Shown: positions 1 to 27,425 of the stretch, in pieces
How positions within the stretch are numbered: position 1 is the first letter of the stretch
Layout of the letters: every line of letters begins with the position of its first letter
Virus record (IMG/VR): IMGVR_UViG_3300042895_003305
Location: 1-35,298 of that record
Strand: one strand, 5' to 3'
Source: a virus
DNA length: 35,298 nucleotides
Notes under the pieces: model-generated
The model's input: only the letters and a program-made list of their open reading frames with translations
The model's database searches: none
Told to the model about the DNA's origin: nothing
Program-made: the position numbers and the translations under genes

Positions 1-636
1 ATTTATCTCCACAGAACGCGCAAGCTAACGTGTGTAAGCCCTAACATGATTGAGCGACAAGAACAGTCGCTGCATGTCAGAATAGGACACAATCAATTTT
101 CACGCCTCAACTGTGTGTTTGGCACCCAATATGATTGCTGGTTGTTGATGCGCCGGATAGTACTGCATCCGCGCTAACGTGGGGTATGGCGCTGGCCACA
201 TACCCATTCTTCGGAAAGGTGGCGGAGATTGTTGGCAGGCTCACCACGCTCTAGGGCGATTGTACATCCGCTGGGGTCCACCGGCGAATGGCCGAGATCT
301 ATGGGGAACGCGAAGGCACTCGCCGCATGACAAATATGGTTTTGCAGTCGCAGGCTAGTTGGGGCGCCATCGAGCGCAACGACAAAGGGAAGCGCATCGA
401 GCGCAAGAAGGCAATGGACCTAGACGGCTCTTCAGTAGCCGCTTGGCTCGCCGAAGCATGTTTACGATATAGCGGACGCGCGCTCCTCATAGCGAGCATA
501 GAGTCCAGCCCAGCGATCTACCCCTTTGTTCTTGGTGGCTCGACAGCCTACCTCCTCTCCTAATCAAGAGCGCTTGAGATGCGGGTGGACAGCGCCGGCA
601 ATCAGGTCGTTGGCTTAGCGGGTTGAATGACCGGCA
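1..636. other. Flanking region without intact gene
   Basis: No convincing intact gene lies left of the sulfotransferase gene. Bases 1-134 are richer in A+T than the phage genes and hold stops in the frame used by the adjacent remnant. Bases 135-563 hold a broken reading frame listed separately, and 564-636 show nothing clear. I see no tRNA, integrase or recognisable attachment core. This may be host DNA just outside the prophage or a decayed end of the phage; the sequence alone does not decide. Confidence 0.4.
135..563 (+). pseudogene. Broken reading frame with one internal TAG
   Basis: Reading from 135 the frame is open except for one TAG at 252-254, then stays open to the TAA at 561-563. 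A possible start ATG is at 186 and gives a hydrophobic beginning (MALATYPFFGKVAEIVGRL) before the stop. The same frame continues with HRRMAEIYGEREGTRRMTN, VLQSQASWGAIER and a C-terminal part ending YPFVLGGSTAYLLS. The continuous protein-like character on both sides of a single stop suggests a recently inactivated gene, not noise. An ATG at 288 could start a shorter 91-residue product. I do not recognise the family. It is the only plus-strand frame near the left edge and is probably host-derived. Confidence 0.45.
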
Positions 637-1317
637 CTAGAACGGCAAATCTCTATGATAGTAGGCTCGCAGAACATAAAAATCATCAGTAATCAGTTTG
701 GGCAAGGGCCCTGATACTGCATTGATCTTTGCGATCTCTACTGACGTACCATCGCCGCCGAACCGATCGACGACCTGCCTCAGTCTGACCTCGTATTCAG
801 CAAAATCCAGGACTGTGATGCCGGAGTGATCTAGCCATTCCGACTGTGACCGATAGAAACTGAGATTGCCTCCCCGCGGTTGGAACTGCACACCGGGAAC
901 AGTGGGCGGCGGCAATGCCGCAAGTATCTCTAGCGGGGCGATGCTGTCGATCACAGAGCGAAGATCTTGTTCGATGTTATTGGGATCAGTCTCGAACCAG
1001 CGGGAGTGCGGCTCGATCCCGACAAACCGCTCCCGGAAAAGCTGTATGAACGAGTTCGGCAGGCCGCGCTTGTGGAACTCGACCGCCGAGCAGAACCGCT
1101 CGACCGGATTCCGCCAGAAGGCATAGATGGCCGTCGGCGCAATTGCCTCTCCGAGAAAACGCGCCTCAGCCAGCCTGATCGCTTCCGGCACTGTTGGATG
1201 CCGCCCCAACTCGCCAACCAGATCAACACCGACCTGACCAAGTACAGCCCGCGCTGTTTGCGACCCGTTCTTCGGCACGCCAATGAACAGCGTCTGGCGG
1301 TCATGCGAAATGATCAT
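637..1317 (-). CDS. Sulfotransferase family protein (phage-borne)
   Basis: This 226-residue protein looks like a PAPS-dependent sulfotransferase. Residues 11-21 (FIGVPKNGSQT) match the 5'-phosphosulfate binding loop near the N-terminus, and residues 68-78 (WRNPVERFCSA) match the 3'-phosphate binding motif with its Arg and Ser. The C-terminal YYHRDL is typical of the sulfotransferase 2 / carbohydrate sulfotransferase style. No signal peptide or membrane segment is seen, so it should act in the cytoplasm. It starts three bases after the stop of the propeller-like gene, so it is the last gene of the late operon. Likely substrates are a cell-surface glycan or a virion component; the target is inference. 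It could serve lysogenic conversion. Confidence 0.72.
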   Translation of the reverse strand: MIISHDRQTLFIGVPKNGSQTARAVLGQVGVDLVGELGRHPTVPEAIRLAEARFLGEAIAPTAIYAFWRNPVERFCSAVEFHKRGLPNSFIQLFRERFVGIEPHSRWFETDPNNIEQDLRSVIDSIAPLEILAALPPPTVPGVQFQPRGGNLSFYRSQSEWLDHSGITVLDFAEYEVRLRQVVDRFGGDGTSVEIAKINAVSGPLPKLITDDFYVLRAYYHRDLPF

Positions 1318-1320
1318 GGG

Positions 1321-2712
1321 TCAGATCCCGGTCGTGGTGTTGGTATAGGAACCGGCCGCAAAGCTGTAAGACGGCGTGCCCGCGGTCAGAGTGCGGCTCA
1401 GCAACGAGAAGCTGCGGAAGGACAGCGACCAGAAAGTGGTGCCAATGCTGGGCGACGAGGCGCTGTAGGTCACGCCTTGCGTCGAGGCTCCGGCTACTGA
1501 CCATGTGCCGGTCTTTGAGCCATCGACGGGCACTTTGAAGATGGCGCCGCATAGATCCATGTACCCGTAGGGCGAGAAGTCCATCATCGTGTAGATGGAG
1601 AACACCATTGCCGTAGAGTTGACAGCCAGACCGGTGAGGCTGAATGAGTTCGCACCATTGCTCGTGTCGAGGCTGACGGAGCGCGCCAGCAACAAGGTGC
1701 CGTCGGTCGAAAACTGATAGATGTCCGCCCCGGCATAGATCGGCGCAAAAACCCGCAGACTGCCGTCCGGCCCCAGGTTCACCGAGCCACTGCCATAACT
1801 GGACGGAAGGGACAGCTGCCATTGGATGACAGCGCCCGAACTGATCTTGAACAGACTGAGCGTGCCGTTGATACCGGCCAGCCAGTAGATATTGTTGCTG
1901 CTGTCGACCGCAACGCCATAGCCGTAATCGTAGCCCGTGCTCCCGATCGAGCGCTGCCAGCTGACCGACGGGGTCGCCGTATTAAGGACGGTGATCAGGG
2001 CGTCGATGTTGCCGGCTGTTGAGGTAGAGGTGTTACCCGAGAGGACCAGCAGGCTCCCGTCCGGACTGAGGGCCATCTGGCTGGCATATTCGTTGCCGGA
2101 GCCGCCGATCGAACGCTGCCATTGCAGGGTGCCGACGCTGTTATACTTGGCTATCAGCGCATCGGCGTTTCCAGAACCGCCGCTCGAGGTCGAGTAGCCC
2201 GCCACATAGACGTTGCCCGATGCATCGACAGCCGCATTGTACCAGAGTTCCTGACCCGAGCCGTTGAGGCTGCGCTGCCATTGCAGGGTTCCTGAGGTAT
2301 CGAGCTTGGCCAGCCAGCCAAAGTAGTTGCTCGAGTAGTAGGCGCCAGCGAGGTAGACATTGCCGGCGGCATCGATCCAACCGCCATTGATGAAAGGCCC
2401 AGAGACGTTTCGGGCCCACAAAAGCGCGCCGTCCCGGTTCCATTTGAACACCGCGCTGTTGCCGCTGGCGTAGATGTTGCCGCTGCTGTCAGTGCCCAGG
2501 ATCAGGAAACTGACCACCGTCGAGCCAAAGGTCACATGCCAGAAGCTCTCGTTCGACTTCCCGTAAAGGTTGGAGAGCGTGATCGGTCCAGATGCGATTC
2601 CAGCCAGTGTCCGCACGGCCGCTTCACCCAGCGAAGTCGTGGTGGTCGATGTACGGCCGAGTTCGACCGCGACATTGCCAAGCGAGATTGGGCCCGAACT
2701 CTGCAGCGTCAT
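1321..2712 (-). CDS. Propeller-like repeat protein, putative tail tip or adhesin
   Basis: The 463-residue product begins with a fibre-style segment (SSGPISLGNVAVELG) that resembles the short N-terminal anchors of phage tail proteins. It then carries repeated units with DSSGNIY, DAAGNVY, DASGNVYVAG and DSSNNIY cores alternating with GTLQWQRS-type strands, in the style of SBBP/beta-propeller repeats. At least five such blades are visible. It overlaps the upstream S74 fibre gene by ATGA, so the two are translationally coupled. Position at the end of the fibre cluster suggests a receptor-binding or fibre-tip role, which is inference. No catalytic motif is seen. Confidence 0.6.
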   Translation of the reverse strand: MTLQSSGPISLGNVAVELGRTSTTTTSLGEAAVRTLAGIASGPITLSNLYGKSNESFWHVTFGSTVVSFLILGTDSSGNIYASGNSAVFKWNRDGALLWARNVSGPFINGGWIDAAGNVYLAGAYYSSNYFGWLAKLDTSGTLQWQRSLNGSGQELWYNAAVDASGNVYVAGYSTSSGGSGNADALIAKYNSVGTLQWQRSIGGSGNEYASQMALSPDGSLLVLSGNTSTSTAGNIDALITVLNTATPSVSWQRSIGSTGYDYGYGVAVDSSNNIYWLAGINGTLSLFKISSGAVIQWQLSLPSSYGSGSVNLGPDGSLRVFAPIYAGADIYQFSTDGTLLLARSVSLDTSNGANSFSLTGLAVNSTAMVFSIYTMMDFSPYGYMDLCGAIFKVPVDGSKTGTWSVAGASTQGVTYSASSPSIGTTFWSLSFRSFSLLSRTLTAGTPSYSFAAGSYTNTTTGI

Positions 2713-3569
2713 GTCCGCGCCTCAAGGCGTTCGACCTTGTCGGCAAGTTCCTTGACCGCCTCGATCAGCACGCCGACGAGATTGCCATAGGCGACAGACA
2801 GCAGGCCATCCTCGTGGGTCATAACCGCCTCGGGCACAATGGGCGCCAGTTCTTGTGCGACGAGGCCGACACCGCGACTGCCCGTATCGCGCCGGGTGAA
2901 GGTTACCCCGCGAAGCTTACAGACCCGGTCCAGCGCGCCAGCAATGGTCTCGACGTCCGTTTTCAGGCGGGCGTCCGAATAAGCGGTAATGTCACCGGTG
3001 GCGGTGATCGATCCCGACACGGAGATGCTACCGGTGAAGCTGTCGCCCGCCTTGTTGGCAGGCGTGTAGCCAAGAGCCCCTGTAACATCACCGGACGTCA
3101 TCGCAGATGCTGCGGTAACGCGCCCTTTCGCGTCCACTGTTACCTTGAGATAGGTCCCGGCCGTGACCCCGCTGTTGGCGAGCGTCGCAGCGAACGACAG
3201 GTTGCCCGCGCCATCGAAGCTGCCGCTTGTGCCGGTCACATCGCCGGTCAGCGCAATGGTGCGCCCAGTCGCCCACCTGGTCGCTGTCGCGGCATTGCCG
3301 GTGCAGGACCCTGATGAGCCGGTGATCGACCCACTCGCCGTGATATAGCCGCTGGGGTTGGTTGAGTTGTAGGGCGTGAAGCCAAGCGCCGTGGTCACCA
3401 TGCCCGATGTGAGGTTGCCAAAACCAACCTGCACCACGGTGCCGCCAGCAGTCTTCGAGTACAGCCTCTGATCGGCCAGATTGACCGCCAGTTCGCCCGC
3501 CTGCAGCGACGCAGCGGCAGGGACGCTGGACGCGGTCGAGGACCGTTTGAGCAGGATGGTACTGGGCAT
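2709..3569 (-). CDS. Tail fibre with C-terminal S74 self-cleaving chaperone
   Basis: This 286-residue fibre starts with a short anchor (STILLKRSSTASSVPAAASL, then GELAVNLADQRLY), continues with Ser/Thr/Gly-rich beta repeats, and ends in a Peptidase_S74 intramolecular chaperone domain. The junction AYSDARLKTD holds the expected Ser (residue 198) and Lys (residue 203) of the autoprocessing dyad. It is followed by GLVAQELAPIVPEAV and a C-terminal helix (VGVLIEAVKELADKVERLE). In this family the chaperone drives trimer folding and then cuts itself off before the Ser. The gene overlaps its neighbours by TGATG upstream and ATGA downstream. Part of its shaft is shared with the fibre gene at 3569-5110. 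Confidence 0.85.
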   Translation of the reverse strand: MPSTILLKRSSTASSVPAAASLQAGELAVNLADQRLYSKTAGGTVVQVGFGNLTSGMVTTALGFTPYNSTNPSGYITASGSITGSSGSCTGNAATATRWATGRTIALTGDVTGTSGSFDGAGNLSFAATLANSGVTAGTYLKVTVDAKGRVTAASAMTSGDVTGALGYTPANKAGDSFTGSISVSGSITATGDITAYSDARLKTDVETIAGALDRVCKLRGVTFTRRDTGSRGVGLVAQELAPIVPEAVMTHEDGLLSVAYGNLVGVLIEAVKELADKVERLEART

Positions 3570-5110
3570 CAGAAGGTTCCACCATCCAGCGTCACGCCAT
3601 CGATCGAACCACCGGTGATCGCGACATTGCTCGCGGCCTGTGTGGAAATGGTGCCGAGCCCGGAAATGTCAGTGTTGGGGATCGTCGTTGAAGCCGTAAA
3701 TGCAGAAGTGCCGTTGCCCTTGAGGTAGCCGGTGAGCGTGGTGGCCCCCGAGCCACCTTTGGCCACGCCGAGCGTGCCGCCGATATTGCCCAGCGTCAGG
3801 TTCGCTTCGTTGACATCGACAGTTGGGTTGCCCGCCACACCATCGCCATTGGTGATGGCGATCTTGATCGAGCCGGCCGTCAGGGTGCGCGCTGCCACGG
3901 TTCCTGCAGCCGTGCGGGCGATGATCCCGTTGGCGGCAAGATTATGCAGGGAGAGTGCTTGCCCCGTCAGCGCGACGCTATCAGCAGCAACGGCAATGCC
4001 AGTGCCCGCACCCACGTCGATCGTGTTGCCAGTCTTCGTGAGGCCATTGCCAGCGACGATCTGGCCCGCGCCATTGAACTGGACGAAGGTGATTGCCGTG
4101 GTGCCCAGCGCCCCACCCGCATCGACCGTGCACAGGTAGCCAATGTCGGCGTTCACTGTGCCCTGTTCGACAAACAGGTAAGCCGAGACATGCTCGTCCC
4201 AGGTAGAGAGGTCGATCGATCGCGCCCAGGCGCCGGAGGCAACGACATAGACACCGTTCTGAGACGGCGTGGTCTGGTCCTTCACCAGCACGCGGTCGCT
4301 CACGGCAAGCGCCACGCCGTCGATGGTCATGGTGCCTGAAAGCGAAGCGATGTTCGCGGTCGAGGCGCCCTTGACCGAAGCCTTGGGATCAAGCCCCTGG
4401 ACAGTGAGATCGACGTAGTTCTTGGTGGCCGCGTCCTGTGCGCCCGTAGGGTCCGCAAGCCCGGAGATACGCTGGCTGTTAACATCCACCGCTGCCGTGG
4501 GTGCTGCCATCTGGTCGAGCCGGTTTGCGCGAACCCGGGCGTCGGTGAAGTAGAGGTTAGTGCCTTCGGCGACGTCGCTGGTTGAGAGCGTGATCGCGCC
4601 CGTGCGTCCAGCAACCGAGGTCACCGGAAAGGTGATCGCAACATTGCTCGCTGCGGTCACGCGCCCCTTGGCATCGACCGTGACCTGCCCGACTTGGCTG
4701 GCCGAACCATAGGTGCCTGCAGTGACGCCGCTATTCGCGAGGGTCGCGGCAATGGTCGCATTGGCGGTGCCATTGAAGCTTGCTGTGCCGGTCACATCGC
4801 CGGAGAGGCCCAGCGTGCGCGCGGTTGCCAAAGCCGTGGCAGTTGCGGCATTGCCGGAGATCGAGCCTGCAATCGTGCTCGAAAAGGTCTTGGCCCCCGC
4901 AATGGTCTGGTCGCCTGAGACCGAGACAAAGCCGCCCGAACCGCCGATAGCGATGACTGAAGTCGCGGTGCCGCCAGCACCGCCTGTGCCAGTGCCGTAG
5001 TAGAGCGTGTTGTCCTGCTCGTTGAAAGCGAGCTCGGCATTGGCAAGCGATGCAGGAGCACCGGCACCGCCGCCCGCGGCGCGGCGCTTGATACGCAGGG
5101 TATTGGCCAT
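3569..5110 (-). CDS. Tail fibre protein
   Basis: The 513-residue product is a long, Gly/Ala/Thr-rich beta-structured fibre without a chaperone domain. Its N-terminus ([10 protein letters not shown], then [21 protein letters not shown]) is the anchor type found at the start of many siphovirus fibres. A phage fibre motif, [21 protein letters not shown], sits near the middle, followed by [18 protein letters not shown]. The segment with [19 protein letters not shown] and [13 protein letters not shown] also occurs in the next gene, so the two fibres are partly paralogous. The start overlaps the upstream stop by one base (TGATG). It probably forms the long part of the host-recognition apparatus; no enzymatic domain is visible. 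Confidence 0.8.
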
Positions 5111-7422: not shown

Positions 7423-8334
7423 TTAGCTGACCGTGACCGACACGACTTCGCGCAGCGTATGCGTGCCCGACTGGCCGCCGGACGCGGCGATCGCAGCCCC
7501 GCCTTGGCTGGGTGCAATGTTGAAGGTGTCGGTGGAGGCGTTGATGACGAAGTAGGTCGTGTTGGCGAGGATGCCGCTCGGCAACGCCCCGCTGGTCACG
7601 AACTGGACTTTTTTGCCATTGGTGAGGCCGTGCCCCGCCGCTGTCACCGTTGCAGGACTGGCGACGGTGATGACGACCGATCGCGGCAACAGGGACGCAA
7701 ATGGGTTACCGCTAAGAGCACCATAAGCCTCAAAGGCGGTAATCGGGTCCTTGTAGCCGTAGCGGGTGCCTGAGCCCGAGCCGGTAAAAATGATTGCTGC
7801 ACCGCCGGGGGTCGCGGCGATCTTGAAGGCGCTAGAGCTCACCACCGACTGCACGAAGTACATCGTGAAAGCCGTAATCCCGGTGGGCATGCCGCCGCTG
7901 CAATAGAACTGAACCGGATCACCCACGGCGAGGCCATGCGAGGTCCAGTTGATGTTGTTGGTCGGCGACGGGCTAAAGCTGATCCCGGTCACAAAGGTTG
8001 CCCAGGCGATCGAGCCAGCACTTAAGTTGAAAATGGTGCCATTGATGCGCAGGCGGCTTGGCTGAGGCGCCGCATTATAGCCGTCCAGGCCGATCAGCGT
8101 CCGCGACGTTGCGGCATAGAAATCGTAATCATGGATGACCGCGCGAATGGTGCGGCCCTGCCAGGTCGCTGGCGTGAAGTTGCCGCCGCTAAGCGATGTG
8201 AAATAGCCGCCATCAGCACCGTATTGCTCGCCCGCACTGTATTTGTTGGCAAACGAGTAATAGCTGATGGGCAGATCAATCTGCCGCTCGTCGCTTCCCG
8301 ACCCGAGCAGGATCCCAAGCACGCCCGACATCAA
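7423..8334 (-). CDS. Tail protein with two repeated beta modules
   Basis: The 303-residue protein holds two copies of one module. The first begins SHGLAVGDPVQFYCSGGMP and ends with GGAAIIFTGSGSGT; the second begins GHGLTNGKKVQFVTSGALP and ends with GGAAIAASGGQSGT. Both follow the pattern HGL-x-G-x-x-VQF, (L/M)P-(T/S)GI, T-x-YFV, F-x-IA, GGAAI. Such modules are found in virion surface proteins of many phages. The N-terminal half (LGILLGSGSDERQIDLPISY) is unassigned. ATGA overlap with the upstream gene shows translational coupling. A role at the tail tip or in host-surface contact is likely but unproven. Confidence 0.68.
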   Translation of the reverse strand: MMSGVLGILLGSGSDERQIDLPISYYSFANKYSAGEQYGADGGYFTSLSGGNFTPATWQGRTIRAVIHDYDFYAATSRTLIGLDGYNAAPQPSRLRINGTIFNLSAGSIAWATFVTGISFSPSPTNNINWTSHGLAVGDPVQFYCSGGMPTGITAFTMYFVQSVVSSSAFKIAATPGGAAIIFTGSGSGTRYGYKDPITAFEAYGALSGNPFASLLPRSVVITVASPATVTAAGHGLTNGKKVQFVTSGALPSGILANTTYFVINASTDTFNIAPSQGGAAIAASGGQSGTHTLREVVSVTVS

Positions 8335-9419
8335 CTGATACCTGTCCCTGAGACGAACCAGACATTGGTCTCGACCTTGATCAGCGTGGCCATACCTCGC
8401 ACCGCCAGCGTCCGGTTGCCCGTGCTAGTGGTGCCGGCCTGACAAAGCGTGACGCCTGCACCTTGCGCGATTACGATAGCCGCGCCGCCGTTGTTGATGA
8501 TGGTGACGGTGGTGCCAAGCGGGAAGCCGACAGTGCCATTGGGTGGCACGGTAATAGTCTGGGCCGCGGAATTCAGCGAATAGATGTGCTTGCCATTGTC
8601 GGCTGCGACCAGCTGGTAGGACGCGCTCTGGGCGTTTTGGGGCACTTCACGGAAGCCAATCGACCAAGCGGAGCCGGCGGCGTCGTTGACGGTCGATCCG
8701 GTTTCTGCACCCGAAATCGTCTTGTTGGAAAGCGTCTGGCTATCCGTTGTGCCGACGATCGCGCCTGATGGCACTGCCTTGCCGGCCCATGAGGCGAGCG
8801 TCGCGCTATAGGCCTGAACGTTGCTGCCGATGGCGAGCCCAAGATTGCTGCGGGCGGTGACCGCGTCAGTTGCGCCGGTCCCGCCGTTGGCAAGTGCGAT
8901 AGCGCCAGTGATTTTGGATCCTGCCAGCGAAGTCAGCCAGGCAGGGTCCGCATAGGTTCCGGTGGTGAGCACGGCATTGCCGGATACCGAAGGTGCGGAG
9001 AGCGCCACGGTCCAGGAAGCAATCGTGCCGCTACCGCCGACCATGGCGACATTGACGACCAATGCACCCGTGCCGCTGGTGTAGGCAGTGATTTGGCCAT
9101 GCATCCAGTTTGCCGGGCTGGCTGTGCTGGTGATGGTCACCCATTGGCCAACCACGAAGGCTTTGGCAGTTTGGACGGTGAGCGATTTTGAGCCCGTGCC
9201 GATGGCAAGCGAGGTCGTGCTGGTGGCACTGGTACCGGGCGCATTGACAGCGGTGGCAGCGCTTGCCGCAGCGTTGGTGGCGTAGCCATTGACCTCGACC
9301 GCCAGCGCATTGGCTTCGGTGCCGAAGGTCGGCAGCGCCCCGAGAAAGGAGTCTGCACGCGCAGAGAAGTTCGCCGCGTCCGTCCGGGACGGGGGCGTGG
9401 GCAGTGTTGTGATAGGCAT
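8331..9419 (-). CDS. Tail fibre-like protein
   Basis: A 362-residue protein starting MPITTLPTPPSRTDAANFSA and FLGALPTFGTEANALAVEVN, an N-terminal arrangement typical of siphovirus fibre proteins. The middle carries GKITGA-like strands (SKITGAIALANGGTGATDAV) followed by NLGLAIGSNV and TDSQTLSNKTISGA, both common phage fibre signatures. The C-terminal part, about residues 265-362, is beta-rich (YQLVAADNGKHIYSLNSAA). GAGGAG lies about seven bases before the ATG. It sits directly after the putative distal tail protein and so may be the central fibre or a tip component. Confidence 0.75.
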   Translation of the reverse strand: MPITTLPTPPSRTDAANFSARADSFLGALPTFGTEANALAVEVNGYATNAAASAATAVNAPGTSATSTTSLAIGTGSKSLTVQTAKAFVVGQWVTITSTASPANWMHGQITAYTSGTGALVVNVAMVGGSGTIASWTVALSAPSVSGNAVLTTGTYADPAWLTSLAGSKITGAIALANGGTGATDAVTARSNLGLAIGSNVQAYSATLASWAGKAVPSGAIVGTTDSQTLSNKTISGAETGSTVNDAAGSAWSIGFREVPQNAQSASYQLVAADNGKHIYSLNSAAQTITVPPNGTVGFPLGTTVTIINNGGAAIVIAQGAGVTLCQAGTTSTGNRTLAVRGMATLIKVETNVWFVSGTGIS

Positions 9420-9440
9420 GAAATTACTCCTCAGGGTGGA

Positions 9441-10334
9441 TCAGGTGAGCCCTTCGATGGTCAGGCTGCAGTAGCTGATCGTCGGATAGGCAAGGTCGAT
9501 CGAGAACTCTTTGTAGAAGCCGTAAACAGTGAGGCTCTCGAAGCTTTCGGAGCCGATCCAGAGGACCGGGGAGGCACGCAGCGCTGCGAGGTTGCGGGCC
9601 ACGTCATCAATGGCGCTGGTTGGCATGACGACGCGGGCAGTCATCCGCTTGGCAAAGGCGCGTTCAACCACCGAGGTCACCCCGAACTGGTCGGTTTCTT
9701 TCCTCGAATAGTCGATGATCCCGATGTCCGCGCCGTGCTCAGTCTCGCCGATTGTGAACTGCCGGCCGAATAGCAGCGCGCCGCAGGAGACCAGGTCAGC
9801 GGGGTTGTCACGCGTAATGGTGACGGTGATGACGCCGGCCTCATAGACCGGCACATCGAGGAACAGCAGGCTCGATTTGCGTCCGACCGGCTCGAAGAAC
9901 CAGCTGAACCAGTTATCGATGGCCGTGCCGCCGACATTGAAACTCTGGTTCCGCGTGTAAAGCTGCGAACCCGACACCGTCAGGGTGACAGTCGCGCTCT
10001 CGGCATTAGTGTCGATGAGCGCCACGCCGTCAGTGGCGCCAGGAGCCAGAACCACCTGCAGTGAGCCAGCTCGTGTCGTTGCCGTGCCAACCCGGTCATC
10101 AAACATCGCCCAGCGATTGGTCGGGCCAATGTCGAGCCACTTGGTTGGATCGCTGGCCGGGTTGACCCCGGTTGATGCGGCCAAGGCCTCGTACCGCCGG
10201 TGGGTCGCGGTCAGGATGACCCGGGTGCCCGCTGCATAGGCCGTGCCGGAGCCCCAAGCAGCGTAGTCATTCTCAGGCGCAGTGCTACTGGACAGCATTG
10301 CGTCGGTAAGCGTGGTCGGGCGGATCAGCTTCAT
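9441..10334 (-). CDS. Putative distal tail protein with chitin-binding-like N-terminus
   Basis: The 297-residue product couples by ATGA to the tape measure gene, the position where a distal tail or tail-tip protein is expected. Residues about 25-70 (AAWGSGTAYAAGTRVILTA, then RRYEALAAS and DPTKWLDIGPTNRW) resemble the small carbohydrate-binding fold of CBM5/12 domains: aromatic, with a W-x-x-G-T-x-Y start. The rest is beta-rich (SATVTLTVSGSQLYTRNQSF) and ends ISYCSLTIEGLT. No canonical hub protein of the lambda gpJ type is seen anywhere in the window, so this may be the main tip component. The carbohydrate-binding idea is from sequence style only. Confidence 0.6.
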   Translation of the reverse strand: MKLIRPTTLTDAMLSSSTAPENDYAAWGSGTAYAAGTRVILTATHRRYEALAASTGVNPASDPTKWLDIGPTNRWAMFDDRVGTATTRAGSLQVVLAPGATDGVALIDTNAESATVTLTVSGSQLYTRNQSFNVGGTAIDNWFSWFFEPVGRKSSLLFLDVPVYEAGVITVTITRDNPADLVSCGALLFGRQFTIGETEHGADIGIIDYSRKETDQFGVTSVVERAFAKRMTARVVMPTSAIDDVARNLAALRASPVLWIGSESFESLTVYGFYKEFSIDLAYPTISYCSLTIEGLT

Positions 10335-13300
10335 GCCGCCGTCCTGGTGGAAATGGCATCGCCGTCCGGCGTCACCCGCTCCAGAATGCGCGCTGTTTTG
10401 CTCGTTCCCGACGCGATCGTGGCGGCGGCGATCCTCTGTTCGCCGCGCAGGTCAGACACCTCCTGCCTGAGCGCCTTGAGTTCATCAATCATCGCGCTCT
10501 GGCCGTCGTTGGCCGGAATGCTTGGCGTACCCATCTGATTGGCAGCGAACTGATCCCACCAACTGGGCGAGGTGGCGGCAGATGTCGCTGCGGCAGGTTC
10601 CGTTCCGCTCGCCTGGTTGATGATCGCCAATGTCTGTTCGAGGCTCGCCGCGGTCAGGCCCTGAAGCCGGCCCAGATCTTCTGCTGACCGTGCGGTGTTG
10701 GCTGCGACCGAGAGCAGAGCCTGGCTCAAACCTGGCAGCGCCTTTGCCGCTTCCTGGTCACCCGAACGCGCCAGCATCGAGGCGTTGTTAAATGCAGCGA
10801 GCGCCGATGCATAGTTTGTCGGCGTATCGCTCATCACGCCCCGGATCCGCTTGATCTCGGCGATCAGTCCATCGGTGATCTGGGCCCATGCATTGCGCAA
10901 CTGTTCCGCGGCATTGGCGGCGTCATCGGCTGCCTTTTGTTGATCTTCAAGCGCCCAGACCTGTTCCTGCAACGCCTTGTTGGACATATCGATCTGGGTA
11001 AGCTCGAGCGCGCGCAGCGCTGCAGTATCGCCCTGGAGTTCCAGCATCCGTCGCTCAAGTGACAACCGCTCATCAAGAATGGCAGCTGCACTGGCAGCAT
11101 CCTGCGCCGCGCCGACCATATCGGCGAATGCCGGCGCCAACTGGATCAGCGCTGCATAAGCGGCCTGTCCAGATGCGGTGGTAAGGTCCTGCGCTTCAAC
11201 CAGCGACCGGAAGCCCGCGATGCTTTGCGGCAGCGCAAGCCCTAGGCTGTCAAAGACCCTGGCCATCTGCGCGGTCTGCGCTGAGGCCTGTTCGCCCTTG
11301 GTGTAATAGAGAGCAAAATACTCACCTGTGGCAGATGCCATGTCGCTGGCCGAGCCGAACAGGTCGAAGAGGTTCATCTTGGCGCTGAGGCTCAGACCCT
11401 CAACCGAGGTGCCGAGCAGGCTAAGCGTACTGCTTACCGCCTCGATACTGGAGGCGACGCGTACCAGCGCCTCGAAATAGCCTTCACCGACCTTTTGGAA
11501 CTGCTCGAGCCCTGGCACCGCCGTGCGGGCGAGATTATCGGCGGCCGCCCCAAAGACAGCGGTCAACTTTTCTTGGATCTCGGTCCCGGTCAGTCCCTTC
11601 AAATCGATCTTGCCGATGTTGACCACAAATCCTGAAAGGCGCGACTGCACCTCGTCAAGCGAAAGGCCCAGCGGGCCGGCAGCCGCCGAGATTGCGCTGT
11701 AGAAGCCTTCGAAGATCAGGCTGAACTGGCGCTCGAGTTCGGCGTCTGCCGCGGTGTACTGGACGCCGTAGCTCGAGCCGGTGCTGATCCCGAGGAACTT
11801 CTTGGTCTTCTTGACATCAGAATAATAACTTGCGTCAAAACCGCCCGACATGATCGATCCTACCGACTGCGCGCCGCCATAAATGCCCTGGCCAACGATG
11901 CTGGTCTTGGTGCCAAACAGAGCGCCTACGATGCTGCCAAGGACCTTGCCGAGACCGCCCAGCAGCTTGGCGCCCAGGAAGCCGATGGCAGCGCCAATCG
12001 GCCCCGCGATCGCCACGCCGATGCCGGCACCAATCAGCGAGCCCGTCTTGCTGCTGGCAAAGTTGGAGATGCCAGTCAGCATCGAATTGGCCGTACCCAA
12101 AAGCCCGTTGAGTTTGGTACCAGTCTGGATACCGGCGGCAGACGCTTCCATGCCGTTGGTGCGAATGATGAGATTGGTGAGCCCGCCAATGTTGGCCTCG
12201 ATGCTTTTCAGCGAAGCCAGCATGGCAGCAGAATAACGCATGGTCAGCGTGTCGACCTCGCGCAGATGATCAATGGCCTTGGCAATGCTTTCGGATTTGG
12301 CTGCGCTATCGCCAAAGACCGTGCCGGTGCCCTCATTAGAAGGCGTGGGATTGGCCCCGCCGCCACCAAAGGCACCGCCAATTGCGATGCCGAGCGAGGC
12401 GATCACGGCGGCGGTGGCGGCCCCTGCGGCAATGTTAAGCGGAAACGGCAGTGAGCGAATGGCATTCACCACGGCTTCGACCGCCTTGATGCCCGTCGTG
12501 ATGATCGAGTTGCCCTGTTCGACGCCGGCTCTTGCGGTGTCGGACACCGCCATGGCCGTATCCGAAGTGACCTTGGCGGCGGTCTGCGCGCCGATCAGGC
12601 CGATTTTCACAGCAGCGTTTTTGATGGCGATCGCCAGTTCAAAGGCGCGGAACACTTTCTCAGCGGCTGCCATGGCTTTGAAGCCCTCGGAGCCTTCTTT
12701 GAAGAAGCCCTTCGCGGCCGAAGCGAGATTGCCATAATGGTTGATCTCAGCCGAAGCCTGCGCCGTGCGCGCGTCCGCGTACTGGAACGAGGACCGTCCA
12801 TATTCACGCTCTGCATCGGCGACGCGGCTAGCAGCGGCCACCTGCGCAGAGGCAAAACGGGTGATCTCGACCGTGATGCCGCCAATCGCCCCGCCAACTG
12901 AACCGAAAGCATCAGCCATGCCCTGAGCCGCAGCTTCTGTCGCGGAGACCATGTCGTCGAGGCTCTTGAGAAACTGTTCCTGATCGCTTTGGGCAAAGTC
13001 AGCCTCCATCAGGCGGGTGCGTGCAGCCCGATATCGTTCCCAGGCTTCCGCGCCGCGTTCGAGGACAATCTGCTCGCGCTCCGCCTCAAGATTGGCGAGT
13101 GCCTGCGCCCGCGCGGACCGGCCCAGCAGAGCGACCTGCTGTTCAAGCGGGGCGACCGTTTGGCGAAGGAACTCAGACGCGGCGAACGCGCGGGTTGTCT
13201 GTTCCCAGGCCTCACCGGCTTCGAGAATAGCGATGCGTGCCGCGTCAGTGGGCGCCTTCAGCGCCGCCATGGCGACTTCCATGCGCTTGATCTCAATTGG

Positions 13301-15419: not shown

Positions 15420-15515
15420 TGCGGTGATTTGGGCGCCCAATCACCGCATAGTTTGCGGTGATTGTTGCATTTGCGGTGATTAGGGGTCATAAACGCCGCA
15501 AGAGGTGCGGTGATT
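15420..15515. promoter_or_regulatory. Duplicated operator array at the fic start
   Basis: TGCGGTGATT occurs in direct orientation at 15420, 15454, 15472 and 15506, and inverted (AATCACCGCA) at 15439-15448. A degenerate inverted copy (AAACGCCGCA, 8 of 10) lies at 15491-15500. The layout is two 44-bp units with a 52-bp period, each site-N9-inverted site-N5-site. The last copy overlaps the GTG start codon of fic. This suggests repeated binding of a regulator, perhaps Fic's own C-terminal winged helix, that shuts down fic and possibly affects the leftward G gene. Confidence 0.75.
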
Positions 15516-16625
15516 ATTGTGCGATACATTCATCAAAGAGACGACTGGCCCCGATTTCGTTGGGACGAACTGCAAATCGGCTCCAAGCTTACCGAGGTCC
15601 GCCATCGTCAAGGGCGGCTCACAGGCCGCATGGAAGCGCTTGGTTTTGGACTGCGCGATGAGGCCATTCTGCGCACGCTCACCCAGGACGTGCTCAAATC
15701 CAGCGAAATCGAGGGGGAAATCCTCGATGCTGAGCAGGTCAGGTCTTCCATTGCGCGGCGCATGGGCCTTGATGTTGCGGGACTGGTTCCCTCCGATCGT
15801 AACGTCGAAGGTGTGGTCGAGATGATGCTCGATGCCACGCAGAATTTTGATCAACCTCTAACCGCTGCCCGACTTTTCGACTGGCACGCCGCCCTGTTTC
15901 CGACAGGCAGAAGCGGCATGACCAAAATTACGGTTGGCGGTTGGCGAAACGACGAAACTGGCCCCATGCAGGTCGTGTCAGGTCCGATAGGGCGCGAGCG
16001 GGTCCATTATGAAGCGCCTGTTGCCGCGCAGCTTGATACTGAAATGCAGGCATTTCTGGCATGGTTCGACGATGCATCATCGCTAGACCCCGTCATCAAG
16101 GCGGCAATTGCCCATATCTGGTTTGTGACCATCCACCCGTTTGATGATGGGAATGGGCGTATCGGCAGGGCGATTTCAGACATGGCCATGGCGCGCTCTG
16201 ATCGCAGTGCACAGCGGTTTTACAGCATGTCTGCGCAAATCCGGACTGAGCGTAAGGCATATTACGATCAGCTCGAAGCAAACCAGAAGGGCGATCTGGA
16301 TATTACAGGCTGGCTGACCTGGTTCCTGGATTGTCTAGACCGCGCCTTTGATGGGGCGGAAGAAACGCTGGCTGCCGTTCTGAGCAAGGCAAAGTTTTGG
16401 GAGAAGTACAGCCCTGCAGGCCTCAATGCCCGCCAGACCCAGATCCTCAATCGGCTGCTTGATGGGTTTGAAGGTAAGCTGACCAACGCCAAATACGCCA
16501 AGCTTGCCAAGACATCGAGCGATACATCGCTGCGTGACCTCAATGACCTGGTTGCCAGAGGTATCCTGCACAAGGCCCCGGCGGGAGGGCGCGGGACCAG
16601 CTATCACCTGCCAGAAGATGATTGA
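15510..16625 (+). CDS. fic: Fic family AMP-transferase with autoinhibitory helix
   Basis: The 371-residue product is a class II Fic protein. The N-terminal part (YIHQRDDWPRFRW, then LTEVRHRQGRLTGRM) is the DUF4172-type domain. The inhibitory motif (S/T)xxxE(G/N) is S64-x3-E68-G69 in KSSEIEGE. The catalytic loop HPFDDGNGRIGR is complete at residues 209-220, with His209. The C-terminal 70 residues (LNARQTQILNRLL, then YAKLAKTSSDTSLRDLNDLV) form a winged-helix DNA-binding domain. Such enzymes transfer AMP to target proteins. The start is GTG at 15510; GTG at 15519 is possible. It is on the opposite strand to the tail genes that flank it, so it is an inserted accessory gene. Confidence 0.9.
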   Translation: MIIVRYIHQRDDWPRFRWDELQIGSKLTEVRHRQGRLTGRMEALGFGLRDEAILRTLTQDVLKSSEIEGEILDAEQVRSSIARRMGLDVAGLVPSDRNVEGVVEMMLDATQNFDQPLTAARLFDWHAALFPTGRSGMTKITVGGWRNDETGPMQVVSGPIGRERVHYEAPVAAQLDTEMQAFLAWFDDASSLDPVIKAAIAHIWFVTIHPFDDGNGRIGRAISDMAMARSDRSAQRFYSMSAQIRTERKAYYDQLEANQKGDLDITGWLTWFLDCLDRAFDGAEETLAAVLSKAKFWEKYSPAGLNARQTQILNRLLDGFEGKLTNAKYAKLAKTSSDTSLRDLNDLVARGILHKAPAGGRGTSYHLPEDD

Positions 16626-24807: not shown

Positions 24808-24843
24808 GTCAAATACCCTTTGACATGTCAAATGATGTTTGAC
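24808..24843. promoter_or_regulatory. Double operator upstream of second higBA pair
   Basis: Two inverted repeats of the form GTCAAA-N5-TTTGAC lie side by side: 24808-24824 (spacer TACCC) and 24827-24843 (spacer TGATG), separated by AT. The inner halves form the 14-bp palindrome TTTGACATGTCAAA. TTGACA at 24820 also resembles a -35 box with CATATG 17 bases on, so bound HigA would block RNA polymerase. The region lies between divergent terS and higB. Confidence 0.8.
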
Positions 24844-24853
24844 ATATGGCTCT

Positions 24854-25138
24854 ATGGATATCGAAAGCATAACCCACAAAGGGCTGCGAAGGTTTTTCGA
24901 AACCGGCAACGCAAAAGGCTTGGTGGGTGACACAGCACGGATCCGCAAGATGCTGGCATTTATTGATGCAGCAGCGAGTTTTAACGAACTGGCCGTGCCT
25001 CCGAATTATGGGTTGCACGAACTGGTTGGCGACAAGGCCGGGCACTGGGCAATGACCGTGACAAAAAACTGGCGTCTGACCTTCATCAAGATTGATGAAG
25101 CGACAATCGCTGAACTTGATATGGAGGATTACCACTGA
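24854..25138 (+). CDS. higB: HigB-type toxin (RelE superfamily)
   Basis: A 94-residue protein starting MDIESITHKGLRRFFETGNA. The pattern GLRRFF, RIRKMLAFIDAA, LHELVGDKAGHWAMTVTKNW and RLTFIKIDEATIAELDMEDY is that of HigB/RelE-family mRNA interferases that cut messages on the ribosome. The ATG at 24854 is preferred; an upstream TTG at 24839 lies inside the operator. It overlaps the antitoxin by one base (TGATG). The toxin-first order is typical of HigBA. It is on the plus strand, opposite to the phage late genes. Confidence 0.88.
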   Translation: MDIESITHKGLRRFFETGNAKGLVGDTARIRKMLAFIDAAASFNELAVPPNYGLHELVGDKAGHWAMTVTKNWRLTFIKIDEATIAELDMEDYH

Positions 25139-25440
25139 TGGCTATAATCATGCACCCCTCGCTAGCTGTTCACCCCGGTGATTGGCTGAAAACCGAAGTA
25201 GTCGTTCCGCACGGCGTTAGCATCAATCACCTCGCAACCTGCTTTCACGTAACGCGCCAGACACTCAGCAATCTTTTCAACGGCCACACGGCCCTTTCCG
25301 CTGAAATGGCGATCAGGTTCGAGAAGGCTTTTGGTATAAAAGCTGATACGCTGATGCGCATGCAGACATCGTATGACTTGGCTCAAGCCCGCGCCCATGC
25401 CGATGACATTATTGTTGATAGGGTTCTGGCTGCTGCCTAA
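25138..25440 (+). CDS. higA: HigA-type antitoxin
   Basis: The 100-residue product contains the HigA/VapI beginning HPGDWLKTEVVVPHGVSINH and the XRE-type helix-turn-helix INHLATCFHVTRQTLSNLFN (about residues 28-48), followed by HTALSAEMAIRFEKAFGI. It binds its toxin and represses the operon, most likely at the double GTCAAA operator upstream. GGAGG lies about ten bases before the ATG. It ends five bases before the end of the convergent methyltransferase gene. Confidence 0.92.
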   Translation: MAIIMHPSLAVHPGDWLKTEVVVPHGVSINHLATCFHVTRQTLSNLFNGHTALSAEMAIRFEKAFGIKADTLMRMQTSYDLAQARAHADDIIVDRVLAAA

Positions 25441-25445
25441 GCATC

Positions 25446-26735
25446 TTAGGCCGTTGCGCAATCACTGGAAACGGGCGCGGGTTCTTTTCCGGCGATTTCG
25501 TTAAACGTTCGGCCATCAGCTTCATGGACCGCGTCCTTTCCCGTAAAATCCTGCCAGCGTTGAACAATGACGTCGGCATATTTGGGGTCAAGTTCCATCA
25601 ACCGGCATCGTCTGCCCTGCTGTTCACAAGCGATCAACGTCGAGCCCGAACCTCCAAAAAGGTCAACCACTAAAGCGCCGCGGGCCGAGGAATTCAGTAG
25701 CGCACGTTCAATCAATTGCGTCGGTTTCGTGGTCGGATGCAGATCAGAGACCCTCGGCCTAGGAATGTTCCAGATGTCGGACTGCTTGCGGTCCGGCACA
25801 TGCATGATCCGTGGTCCGTCTTCGTTCCATCCATACCATAAGGGCTCGTACTGGGTGTGATAGTCCTTGCGCGAGAGGACGAGCGCATCCTTCACCCAGA
25901 TGATCGTCGACGACCAATGAAATTTAGCTTCGCGCAACCCCTTGTCGATCGCAGGCCATTCCTGAGCGCTCATGACAACGTAAGCAAGCGCACCAGGCTT
26001 GGTGACGACATAGAATGAGGCACAAAACCCACTTACAAATTCGCACCACTTGGCTTCGTCCATATGATCGTTCAGGATTTTACGGGGCTTATATCCTTGC
26101 GCATTGCCTGCTTTGACCGCGCCATAATTTACATTCCAAGGTGGATCGGTGAACAACATATCACCAAGCTCACCCTGCATCAGTTTGTCGACATCAGTCT
26201 GGACAGTGCTATCGCCGCACACAAGCCGATGATCGCCCATGATCCAAACATCACCCGGCACTGAAACAGGCGTCTGCGGCAAATCTGGGACGGTGTCAGG
26301 ATCCGTCAACCCTTCACTGCTTTGCGCCAGCAGACCTCCAAGTTCGTTGTCGGAAAATCCCGTGAGCATTAGGCCAAAGTCGAGGCTCTGCAGATCCTCC
26401 AATTCAACTGCCAAGAGTTCAAGATCCCAACCAGCGTTCAGTGCCAACTTATTGTCGGCTATCACATAGGCCTTCTTCTGGGCCTCGCTCCAGCCTTTGG
26501 CTACCATCACCGGAATCTCGGCAAGGCCAAGTTTACGCGCCGCGAGCACCCTGCCATGGCCTGCGATCAGGCCGCCGTCCTCGTCCATTAGAACCGGGAC
26601 CGTCCAGCCCCATTCACGGATCGAGGCGGCAATCTGTGCCACCTGCTCGTCGCTGTGAGTGCGGGCGTTGCGGGCATAGGGCACGAGTGCCGATACGCTT
26701 CTGCGCTCGACCTGATCAGCTGGCCATTGTGTCAT
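25446..26735 (-). CDS. DNA methyltransferase with N-terminal ParB domain
   Basis: A 429-residue fusion. Residues about 10-90 are a ParB/sulfiredoxin-like domain with GGLIAGHGRVLAARKLG. The rest is an amino-methyltransferase of beta type: motif IV DPPW at residues 197-200 comes before motif I DLFGGSGST at residues 358-366, and HPTTKPTQLIERAL lies between. It should methylate adenine N6 or cytosine N4 in a specific sequence using SAM. No partner restriction enzyme lies beside it, so it is an orphan, probably protecting phage DNA or regulating it. GGAG lies five bases before the ATG. It is flanked by two plus-strand toxin-antitoxin pairs. Confidence 0.93.
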   Translation of the reverse strand: MTQWPADQVERRSVSALVPYARNARTHSDEQVAQIAASIREWGWTVPVLMDEDGGLIAGHGRVLAARKLGLAEIPVMVAKGWSEAQKKAYVIADNKLALNAGWDLELLAVELEDLQSLDFGLMLTGFSDNELGGLLAQSSEGLTDPDTVPDLPQTPVSVPGDVWIMGDHRLVCGDSTVQTDVDKLMQGELGDMLFTDPPWNVNYGAVKAGNAQGYKPRKILNDHMDEAKWCEFVSGFCASFYVVTKPGALAYVVMSAQEWPAIDKGLREAKFHWSSTIIWVKDALVLSRKDYHTQYEPLWYGWNEDGPRIMHVPDRKQSDIWNIPRPRVSDLHPTTKPTQLIERALLNSSARGALVVDLFGGSGSTLIACEQQGRRCRLMELDPKYADVIVQRWQDFTGKDAVHEADGRTFNEIAGKEPAPVSSDCATA

Positions 26736-26796: not shown

Positions 26797-27117
26797 ATGT
26801 GGACGATCCTCTACTACAACGATCGCGTGAGGCGGGAGATCGAGGAGTGGCCTGTCGGCATCTTTGCCGACTACCTCCGCCTCGTTGAATGGCTGGAGGA
26901 AGATGGCCTCGATCTTCGAATGCCACATTCACGGGCCATGAGCGGAGGATTGTTCGAATTACGGTGCAAGGGTGCCGAGGGGATCGGCCGCGCGTTCTAC
27001 TGTACGCAGGTCGGTCGTGAGTTGGTGATCTTGCATAGCATACTGAAAAAGAGCCAGGCGACGCCCGATAAGGACCTCAAGCTGGCTCGCAAGCGGTTGA
27101 AGGAGGTGCAGTCATGA
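26797..27117 (+). CDS. Toxin of Gp49-like (DUF891) HigB type
   Basis: The 106-residue product starts MWTILYYNDRVRREIEEWP and contains LVEWLEEDGLDLRMPHSRAM, GGLFELRCKGAEGIGRAFYC and LVILHSILKKSQATP, the sequence style of phage-derived Gp49-like (DUF891) toxins of the RelE superfamily. The L-(F/W)-ELR motif and the C-terminal Lys/Arg-rich helix (DKDLKLARKRLKEV) are the usual active region. It overlaps its antitoxin by ATGA. It is a separate lineage from the HigB at 24854, so the two systems are not recent duplicates. Confidence 0.88.
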   Translation: MWTILYYNDRVRREIEEWPVGIFADYLRLVEWLEEDGLDLRMPHSRAMSGGLFELRCKGAEGIGRAFYCTQVGRELVILHSILKKSQATPDKDLKLARKRLKEVQS

Positions 27118-27425
27118 GTGATCAAGGTTTTAAGCCTGTCCGTCACGACGGGAAAAAGGCTCTGGAAAAGGCGATGCAACGTCCTGGCTTCAAAGAGGCC
27201 TGGGAAGCGGGCGCCGATGAATATGCCGCGCTGCGGTCTTTACTTGAGGCGCGCAAACAATCGGGCCTGACCCAGGACGAAATTGCGGTCCGGATGGGGA
27301 CCTCCAAGAGTGCTGTCTCGCGCCTGGAAAGCTCGATGCGCGATCCTAAACACTCGCCAACATTCGAGACGATCCGCCGCTATGCTAAAGCCTGCGGCAA
27401 GCGCGTCGAACTCCAGCTGGTTTAG
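27114..27425 (+). CDS. HTH antitoxin (HigA-like, XRE family)
   Basis: A 103-residue protein whose N-terminal half (VRHDGKKALEKAMQRPGFKE) is likely to bind toxin. The C-terminal half has a clear XRE helix-turn-helix, LTQDEIAVRMGTSKSAVSRL at residues 52-71, followed by FETIRRYAKACGKRVELQL. It neutralises the DUF891-type toxin and should repress the pair. It converges on the HNH endonuclease gene, 98 bases away. Confidence 0.92.
   Translation: MSDQGFKPVRHDGKKALEKAMQRPGFKEAWEAGADEYAALRSLLEARKQSGLTQDEIAVRMGTSKSAVSRLESSMRDPKHSPTFETIRRYAKACGKRVELQLV

Follow-up and report, generated by a model that had tools for sequence, protein, structure and literature searches.

The open reading frame at positions 637-1317 on the minus strand of the window, which is the whole 35,298-base virus record IMGVR_UViG_3300042895_003305, is a member of the PAPS-type sulfotransferase superfamily, of the Sulfotransfer_2 type, and is predicted to encode an enzyme with intact cofactor residues. 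Our comparison with related records indicates that this gene and the gene of a β-propeller tail tip are present together and lost together, and that the sulfotransferase gene is a mosaic whose PAPS-binding and C-terminal halves reassort between phages. The explanation we favor, with a probability of roughly two in five, is that the enzyme would sulfate, late in infection, the host glycan recognized by the tip and so mask newly made receptor.

The frame begins with an ATG, encodes 226 amino acids and contains the motifs PKNGSQT (residues 15-21) and WRNPVERF (residues 68-75), as an earlier note on this DNA had described. Relatives that are 68-77% identical occur at a fixed place in viral and genome contigs, and these, together with a low dN/dS, identify it at the sequence level as a real gene. 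It is preceded on the same strand by a gene for a fibre or decoration protein of 513 amino acids (3569-5110, identified by PHROGs), a gene for a tail fibre protein with a Peptidase_S74 chaperone (2709-3569; Pfam E 3.3e-12, PHROGs tail) and a gene for a 463-residue protein (1321-2712) that combines an adaptor (about residues 1-56) with an SBBP β-propeller (Pfam SBBP E 4e-9). The position and modularity of this last protein suggest that it is the tail tip, and the sulfotransferase gene follows it directly; the stop codon of the propeller gene and the 3-nt gap to the sulfotransferase start occupy positions 1318-1323. The location directly after fibre genes proposed in the earlier note is thus confirmed, and the same succession behind the propeller recurs in all 16 records that carry it. 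The accompanying claim that the gene is the last of the late operon is correct for the window, where it is the final minus-strand frame of at least 80 amino acids and lies at the 3' end of the tail operon; it does not hold in general, since a further same-strand gene of about 130 amino acids follows in 8 of the 16 propeller records, one of these copies being partial.

The window also contains several genes that lie against or beside the late genes. A Fic-domain gene (DUF4172 plus Fic; PADLOC SoFic, E 1.2e-44) is located at 15510-16625 on the plus strand, opposite in direction to the tail operon that surrounds it. Two toxin-antitoxin-like pairs, HigB with an HTH protein and a Gp49-like protein with an HTH protein, run against the late strand at 24839-25440 (+) and 26797-27425 (+), and a DNA methylase gene (N6_N4_Mtase, E 4.1e-25) with a weak ParB_N match at its N-terminus is found at 25446-26735 (-). 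Additionally, a 99-base stretch at 45-143 is 99% identical to positions 10957-11055 of locus L119, downstream of the tail tip in both, although the tips differ.

Matches of the single protein to existing models were absent or weak, and the motifs therefore needed further tests. For the sulfotransferase protein alone, no Pfam or NCBIfam model matched at E ≤ 1, and PHROG 3347, named galactose-3-O-sulfotransferase, matched at only E=0.026. Similarly, neither this protein nor its close family, used as query, gave a significant match in sequence searches of the PDB, Pfam or NCBIfam, and a tblastn search against annotated phages and plasmids returned two weak, unrelated phage matches and no plasmid match. 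Because the best family member reached only E 0.06 and the Pfam cut-off for PF03567 was missed, we assign the protein to the superfamily, within the Sulfotransfer_2 type, rather than to the Pfam family itself.

Family profiles gave a much clearer signal. A profile built from the window protein together with 11 relatives that share 68-77% identity with it aligned over 194 columns with 17 chromosomal Sulfotransfer_2 proteins (probability 97.9, score 86.05), against a maximum of 23.3 in 60 column shuffles and 12.5 for the reversed profile. The 17 proteins come from chromosomes of sphingomonads, the order of Novosphingobium arvoryzae, and were chosen by motif pattern and a length limit from 30 PF03567 loci, 20 of which had the motif, a choice that favors both motifs. 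When an HMM of these host proteins was run on 9046 stop-to-stop frames of at least 80 amino acids from loci L001-L197, it yielded 40 matches at E ≤ 1e-3, all of them copies of this sulfotransferase gene.

The residues expected to hold the cofactor are conserved well beyond the immediate family. In an alignment of the 12 members of the phage family with 18 of the 28 usable viral sulfotransferases, F11, P15, K16, H40, R69, P71 and S77 are invariant (30/30), R69 and S77 standing eight residues apart. We take PKNGSQT (1255-1275), with K16, to be the 5'-phosphosulfate-binding loop and RNPVERFCS (residues 69-77; 1087-1113), with R69 and S77, to be the 3'-phosphate-binding motif, both roles being carried over from the sulfotransferase superfamily. 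H40 (1198-1200) is a candidate catalytic base, as suggested by its invariance and by a position that we assume to correspond to the place of the base in heparan sulfate sulfotransferases. A loss of PAPS-binding residues, which would have spoken against a PAPS-dependent enzyme, was looked for in this alignment, and they are retained throughout. One might suppose that the protein has lost its catalytic function and instead plays a binding or structural part, given that individual Pfam models miss it and that two copies (L005 and L014) are truncated after the cofactor half; however, the invariance of the cofactor residues and of H40, and a dN/dS of 0.024 over codons 1-25, the strongest constraint in the gene, make this very improbable.

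An AlphaFold2 (AF2) model built from the 30-sequence alignment reached a pLDDT of 81.7 and a pTM of 0.81. A first model from the 12 close relatives only had a pLDDT of 38 and was discarded. As the earlier note had proposed, the prediction was compared with carbohydrate sulfotransferases, and these proved to be the best PDB matches: VIA-align ranked heparan sulfate 2-O-sulfotransferase first (Z 9.4, rmsd 4.2, 170 residues aligned), followed by 6-O-sulfotransferase (9.2), NDST1 (9.1) and 3-OST-3 (8.9). All 50 PDB entries among the matches listed are sulfotransferases, with small-molecule enzymes ranking just below glycan enzymes and no protein sulfotransferase among them. Foldseek against the PDB gave nothing at E ≤ 0.001, its best match being a moderate one to a bacterial sulfotransferase (E 1.8e-3), and the best match among viral models was the sulfotransferase of the uncultured tailed phage A0A6J5KNV5 (E 2.1e-13, 31% identity, TM 0.73). 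The model thus points to a small sulfotransferase with the Sulfotransfer_2 / heparan sulfate sulfotransferase fold. Taken with the profile score of 86 (at most 23.3 in shuffles) and the seven invariant residues, it supports the proposal of a PAPS-dependent enzyme at the level of family.

Comparison with known systems delimits what is shared. The sphingomonad PF03567 proteins resemble the phage protein along their full length and carry the same 5' and 3' PAPS motifs, but they are only about 12-23% identical to it (in an alignment of 11), and as a single sequence it lies beyond the reach of the Pfam model; they are also chromosomal, whereas the gene described here follows the tail-tip gene of a phage. 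Heparan sulfate 2-O-, 6-O-, 3-O- and N-sulfotransferases (PDB 3f5f, 5t03, 6xl8, 9f6z) align over 165-174 residues at Z 8.9-9.4, but at 13-19% identity, and the likeness concerns the fold. The comparison with A0A6J5KNV5 covers the protein model. Marine phage and viral sulfotransferases, such as those of cyanophages and OM43 phages, are likewise small and have the same invariant residues; the comparison with them concerns the protein only, and linkage to a tip is established only for the present family.

Sulfotransferase genes proved to be more widespread in phages than the word "rare" in the earlier note implied. A viral scan seeded with the host sulfotransferase found 31 loci, 28 of which hold a frame that matches the host profile at E ≤ 1e-12 (the three from which none was extracted are L237, L238 and L257), and the viral-model library lists sulfotransferases of cyanophages, uncultured tailed phages, phiRSL1, FoX4 and others. 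One published study calls the role of sulfotransferases in phage genomes unclear and reports the OM43 phage genes as PF13469 (PMC10580990). Within literature represented mostly by titles and the beginnings of abstracts, we found no description of a phage sulfotransferase linked to tail fibres, lysogenic conversion or these hosts. Among 396 genomes of the order of Novosphingobium arvoryzae, the profile of this sulfotransferase matched 3 and the chaperone 7, while PF03567 was present in 16 of 60 genomes of that order, which indicates that the hosts often have sulfotransferases of their own. The tip-sulfotransferase cassette is present in named strains, Novosphingobium arvoryzae KCTC 32422, N. 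meiothermophilum SYSU G00007 and Sphingobium sp. DEHP117. In the genome containing L010, another contig carries a second sulfotransferase copy (G004:C15:3-662, E 1.1e-116).

The linkage between the enzyme and one particular tail tip was examined in 197 loci plus the window, each searched for the fibre, the chaperone, the tip adaptor, the propeller, a 155-residue alternative tip, both sulfotransferase halves and the next gene. The propeller, whole or in large part, is found in 16 distinct records, and the sulfotransferase lies directly behind it in every one of the 16; since L002 and L011 are 99.7% alike, fewer than 16 are effectively independent. These records are the window, seven viral contigs (3300027848_000085, 3300016657_000072, 3300013004_004504, 3300045452_000083, 3300007013_000014, 2826983331_000001 and 3300016657_000060) and loci L007 to L014. 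The distance from the propeller stop to the sulfotransferase ATG measures 5 nt in L001 and 3 nt in the 15 others, among them the window. Thirteen records have the complete sulfotransferase. In L005 (3300007013_000014) it is truncated and joined to a chaperone 3' end, in L014 another sequence takes the place of its C-terminal half, and contig 3300016657_000060 stops inside it.

Two of these records have second copies of other genes near the sulfotransferase. At 6001-6944 of L005 (the same contig as L046), the sulfotransferase is cut near residue 148 and runs on in frame into the 3' end of another copy of the chaperone gene, after which a second, broken tip adaptor follows; this arrangement represents either tandem tail-tip cassettes or an assembly join at the contig end. 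Downstream of the sulfotransferase in L001 (8742-9849) are second copies of an endolysin-like gene and an adjoining small gene, 82% and 73% identical to those of the window.

Records of the same tail family that have no such propeller present the opposite picture: a full-length sulfotransferase occurs in none of 10, of which 8 are informative, as the contigs of L042 and L123, kept as short-tip rows, end at the tip and thus cannot show absence of the gene. The 155-residue tip is found in L035, L042, L044, L048, L113, L117, L119 and L123; L037 is without a tip, and L038 (duplicate L039) has the adaptor with another short tip. Four of the ten retain a C-terminal relic of the sulfotransferase behind a foreign tip or a deletion, corresponding to residues 182-226 in L035 (E 9.8e-12), residues 193-225 with one internal stop in L037 (E 2.2e-4) and, weakly, residues 186-223 in L117 (E 0.0115), with which L113 reads as the same sequence. 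The relics and the missing full-length genes indicate that, where the propeller was replaced, most of the sulfotransferase disappeared with it, at three different junctions, and the relics suggest a direction of change in which the enzyme was first present and later lost. In L048, a likely defence locus lies directly behind the 155-residue tip (7699-12840). It comprises a WYL regulator, a 1133-residue protein that contains sigma-70 region 4 and matches MzaA in part, and a PLD protein that matches PADLOC PbeA strongly.

These counts leave out contigs that break off ahead of the tip gene or within it, or in which the tip was not recognized (L030, L034, L040, L041, L043, L045, L047, L050, L114, L115, L120-L122 and L126), the more distant phages L116 and L144, whose propeller matches are partial (29-40%) and which have no sulfotransferase match, and duplicates of one contig under several locus identifiers, as well as L107/L112 (G135), whose tip and sulfotransferase are contained in L016. 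Across L051-L197, the sulfotransferase occurs only in members of this same tail family. For adjacency of sulfotransferase and tail genes in annotated phages, distant sulfotransferases used as queries matched two unannotated records or none. Part of the linkage could reflect common descent and shared exchange of the flank, as the records are related and the gene beyond the sulfotransferase is also variable.

The two halves of the gene have different histories. Compared with its relatives, the C-terminal half (residues 111-226; 640-987), presumed to be the acceptor side, is 48-68% identical, against 82-90% for the N-terminal half and 86-96% for the propeller. Among ten chosen pairs, the third-position distance from codons 1-110 to codons 111-end rises from 0.11 to 0.45 (L012-L016), 0.00 to 0.27 (L010-L012) and 0.19 to 0.66 (window-L013), and falls from 0.32 to 0.04 (L002-L016) and 0.37 to 0.16 (L004-L016). 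Distances in the two halves are uncorrelated (r 0.11, Mantel p 0.28; 55 pairs, 11 copies), and each half rejects the maximum-likelihood tree of the other (12 copies; AU p 2.5e-6 and 9.8e-59). According to the distance shifts and AU tests, the breakpoint lies near codons 100-115 (973-1020), past K16, H40, R69 and S77; the incompatible trees and this position together imply that recombination joins one cofactor half with different C-terminal halves. Exchange of the whole right flank is possible, because the next gene, of about 130 amino acids, varies too, and the outcome for the enzyme is the same.

Selection also differs along the gene. The median dN/dS is 0.175 for the whole sulfotransferase (78 pairs, 13 copies), 0.088 for codons 1-110 and 0.241 for the remainder, while the propeller and the chaperone have 0.087 and 0.076 (66 pairs each). 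Conservation of the N-terminal half solely as a recombination anchor was ruled out, its median pS of 0.465 being high against a pN of 0.060.

Strict linkage to one type of tail tip, together with exchange of the C-terminal half, points to adsorption as the process served. The earlier suggestion that the enzyme modifies a host surface glycan or the fibre is strengthened by the tip linkage and is a fair guess. In the mechanism we propose, the sulfotransferase would be made late, together with the propeller tip, as the gene order suggests, and would act in the cytoplasm on host PAPS; its N-terminus, MIISHDRQTLFIGV, appears by eye to be without a signal sequence. It would transfer sulfate to a sugar of the surface glycan recognized by the tip, or to the lipid-linked precursor of that glycan. 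Newly made receptor would thus be masked late in infection, progeny tips would not adhere to the dying cell or to its debris, and siblings of the phage would be excluded. Tip and matching enzyme would form a cassette, and exchange of the acceptor half would let the enzyme follow host glycans.

A glycan acceptor is suggested by the fold, whose best PDB matches are glycan sulfotransferases, and by the fast, exchanged C-terminal half. Since an enzyme that marks the receptor late must match the tip, masking would explain the cassette, and a C-terminal half that evolves quickly beside a constant propeller is what would be expected for a variable host glycan as acceptor, and not for the propeller. 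Two points weigh against masking: late expression leaves little time to alter the surface glycan, and the binding face of the tip should vary too if it binds the same glycan, yet the propeller is highly conserved.

The main rival, which we consider rather unlikely, is that the enzyme modifies the virion during assembly by sulfating the propeller tip, another fibre protein or a sugar on it, and thereby alters receptor binding or stability. The short gap that separates the two genes and their joint loss agree with this, as would the presence of both products in the cytoplasm at the same time. Sulfation of the virion accounts for the coupling but not for a divergent, exchanged C-terminal half next to a constant propeller; moreover, a scan of a subset of the frames of the window revealed no glycosyltransferase, and the nearest folds are those of enzymes that sulfate glycans, protein sulfotransferases being absent among the 50 PDB matches listed.

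Expression in the lysogen, with sulfation of a host surface glycan that blocks superinfection, would have a parallel in Shigella phage Sf6, whose oac gene encodes a surface-modifying enzyme, an O-antigen acetylase, beside the gene of the adhesin (tailspike). However, oac occupies the opposite strand, has a putative promoter of its own and encodes an enzyme that transfers acetyl groups, whereas the sulfotransferase gene is on the late strand of the tip, coupled 3 nt behind it, and its product is predicted to transfer sulfate. Such coupling to a late gene is evidence against lysogenic conversion of the ordinary kind, and positions 1-3000 of the window contain two promoter-like sites against 1.0 (sd 1.0) in shuffles, in a scan limited in promoter types; we regard such conversion as improbable. 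About equally doubtful is a service to host metabolism or defence evasion on a small-molecule or nucleotide acceptor, with the place behind the tip an accident of module exchange. The PAPS fold is common to small-molecule sulfotransferases, which rank just below the glycan enzymes, and the site behind the tip accepts other genes too, such as the likely defence locus of L048; against an accident, tip and enzyme were lost together in at least three junctions, and the search revealed no sulfotransferase beside other tips.

Besides late masking of the receptor, which we continue to favor, a bolder reading, which we consider less likely than not, is an adhesin-enzyme cassette in which the tip may be coupled to a sulfotransferase acting on the receptor glycan of the tip or on the tip itself, the acceptor half being swapped as a specificity module while the PAPS half is kept. 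Such a cassette, if real, would assign a definite function to a phage sulfotransferase, and if the tip itself is sulfated, it would to our knowledge be the first virion protein of a phage with this modification. Many viral genomes contain sulfotransferase genes, and for one of these genes tip linkage and exchange of the C-terminal half suggest a process in which it may take part; because named strains carry the cassette, the question is directly testable.
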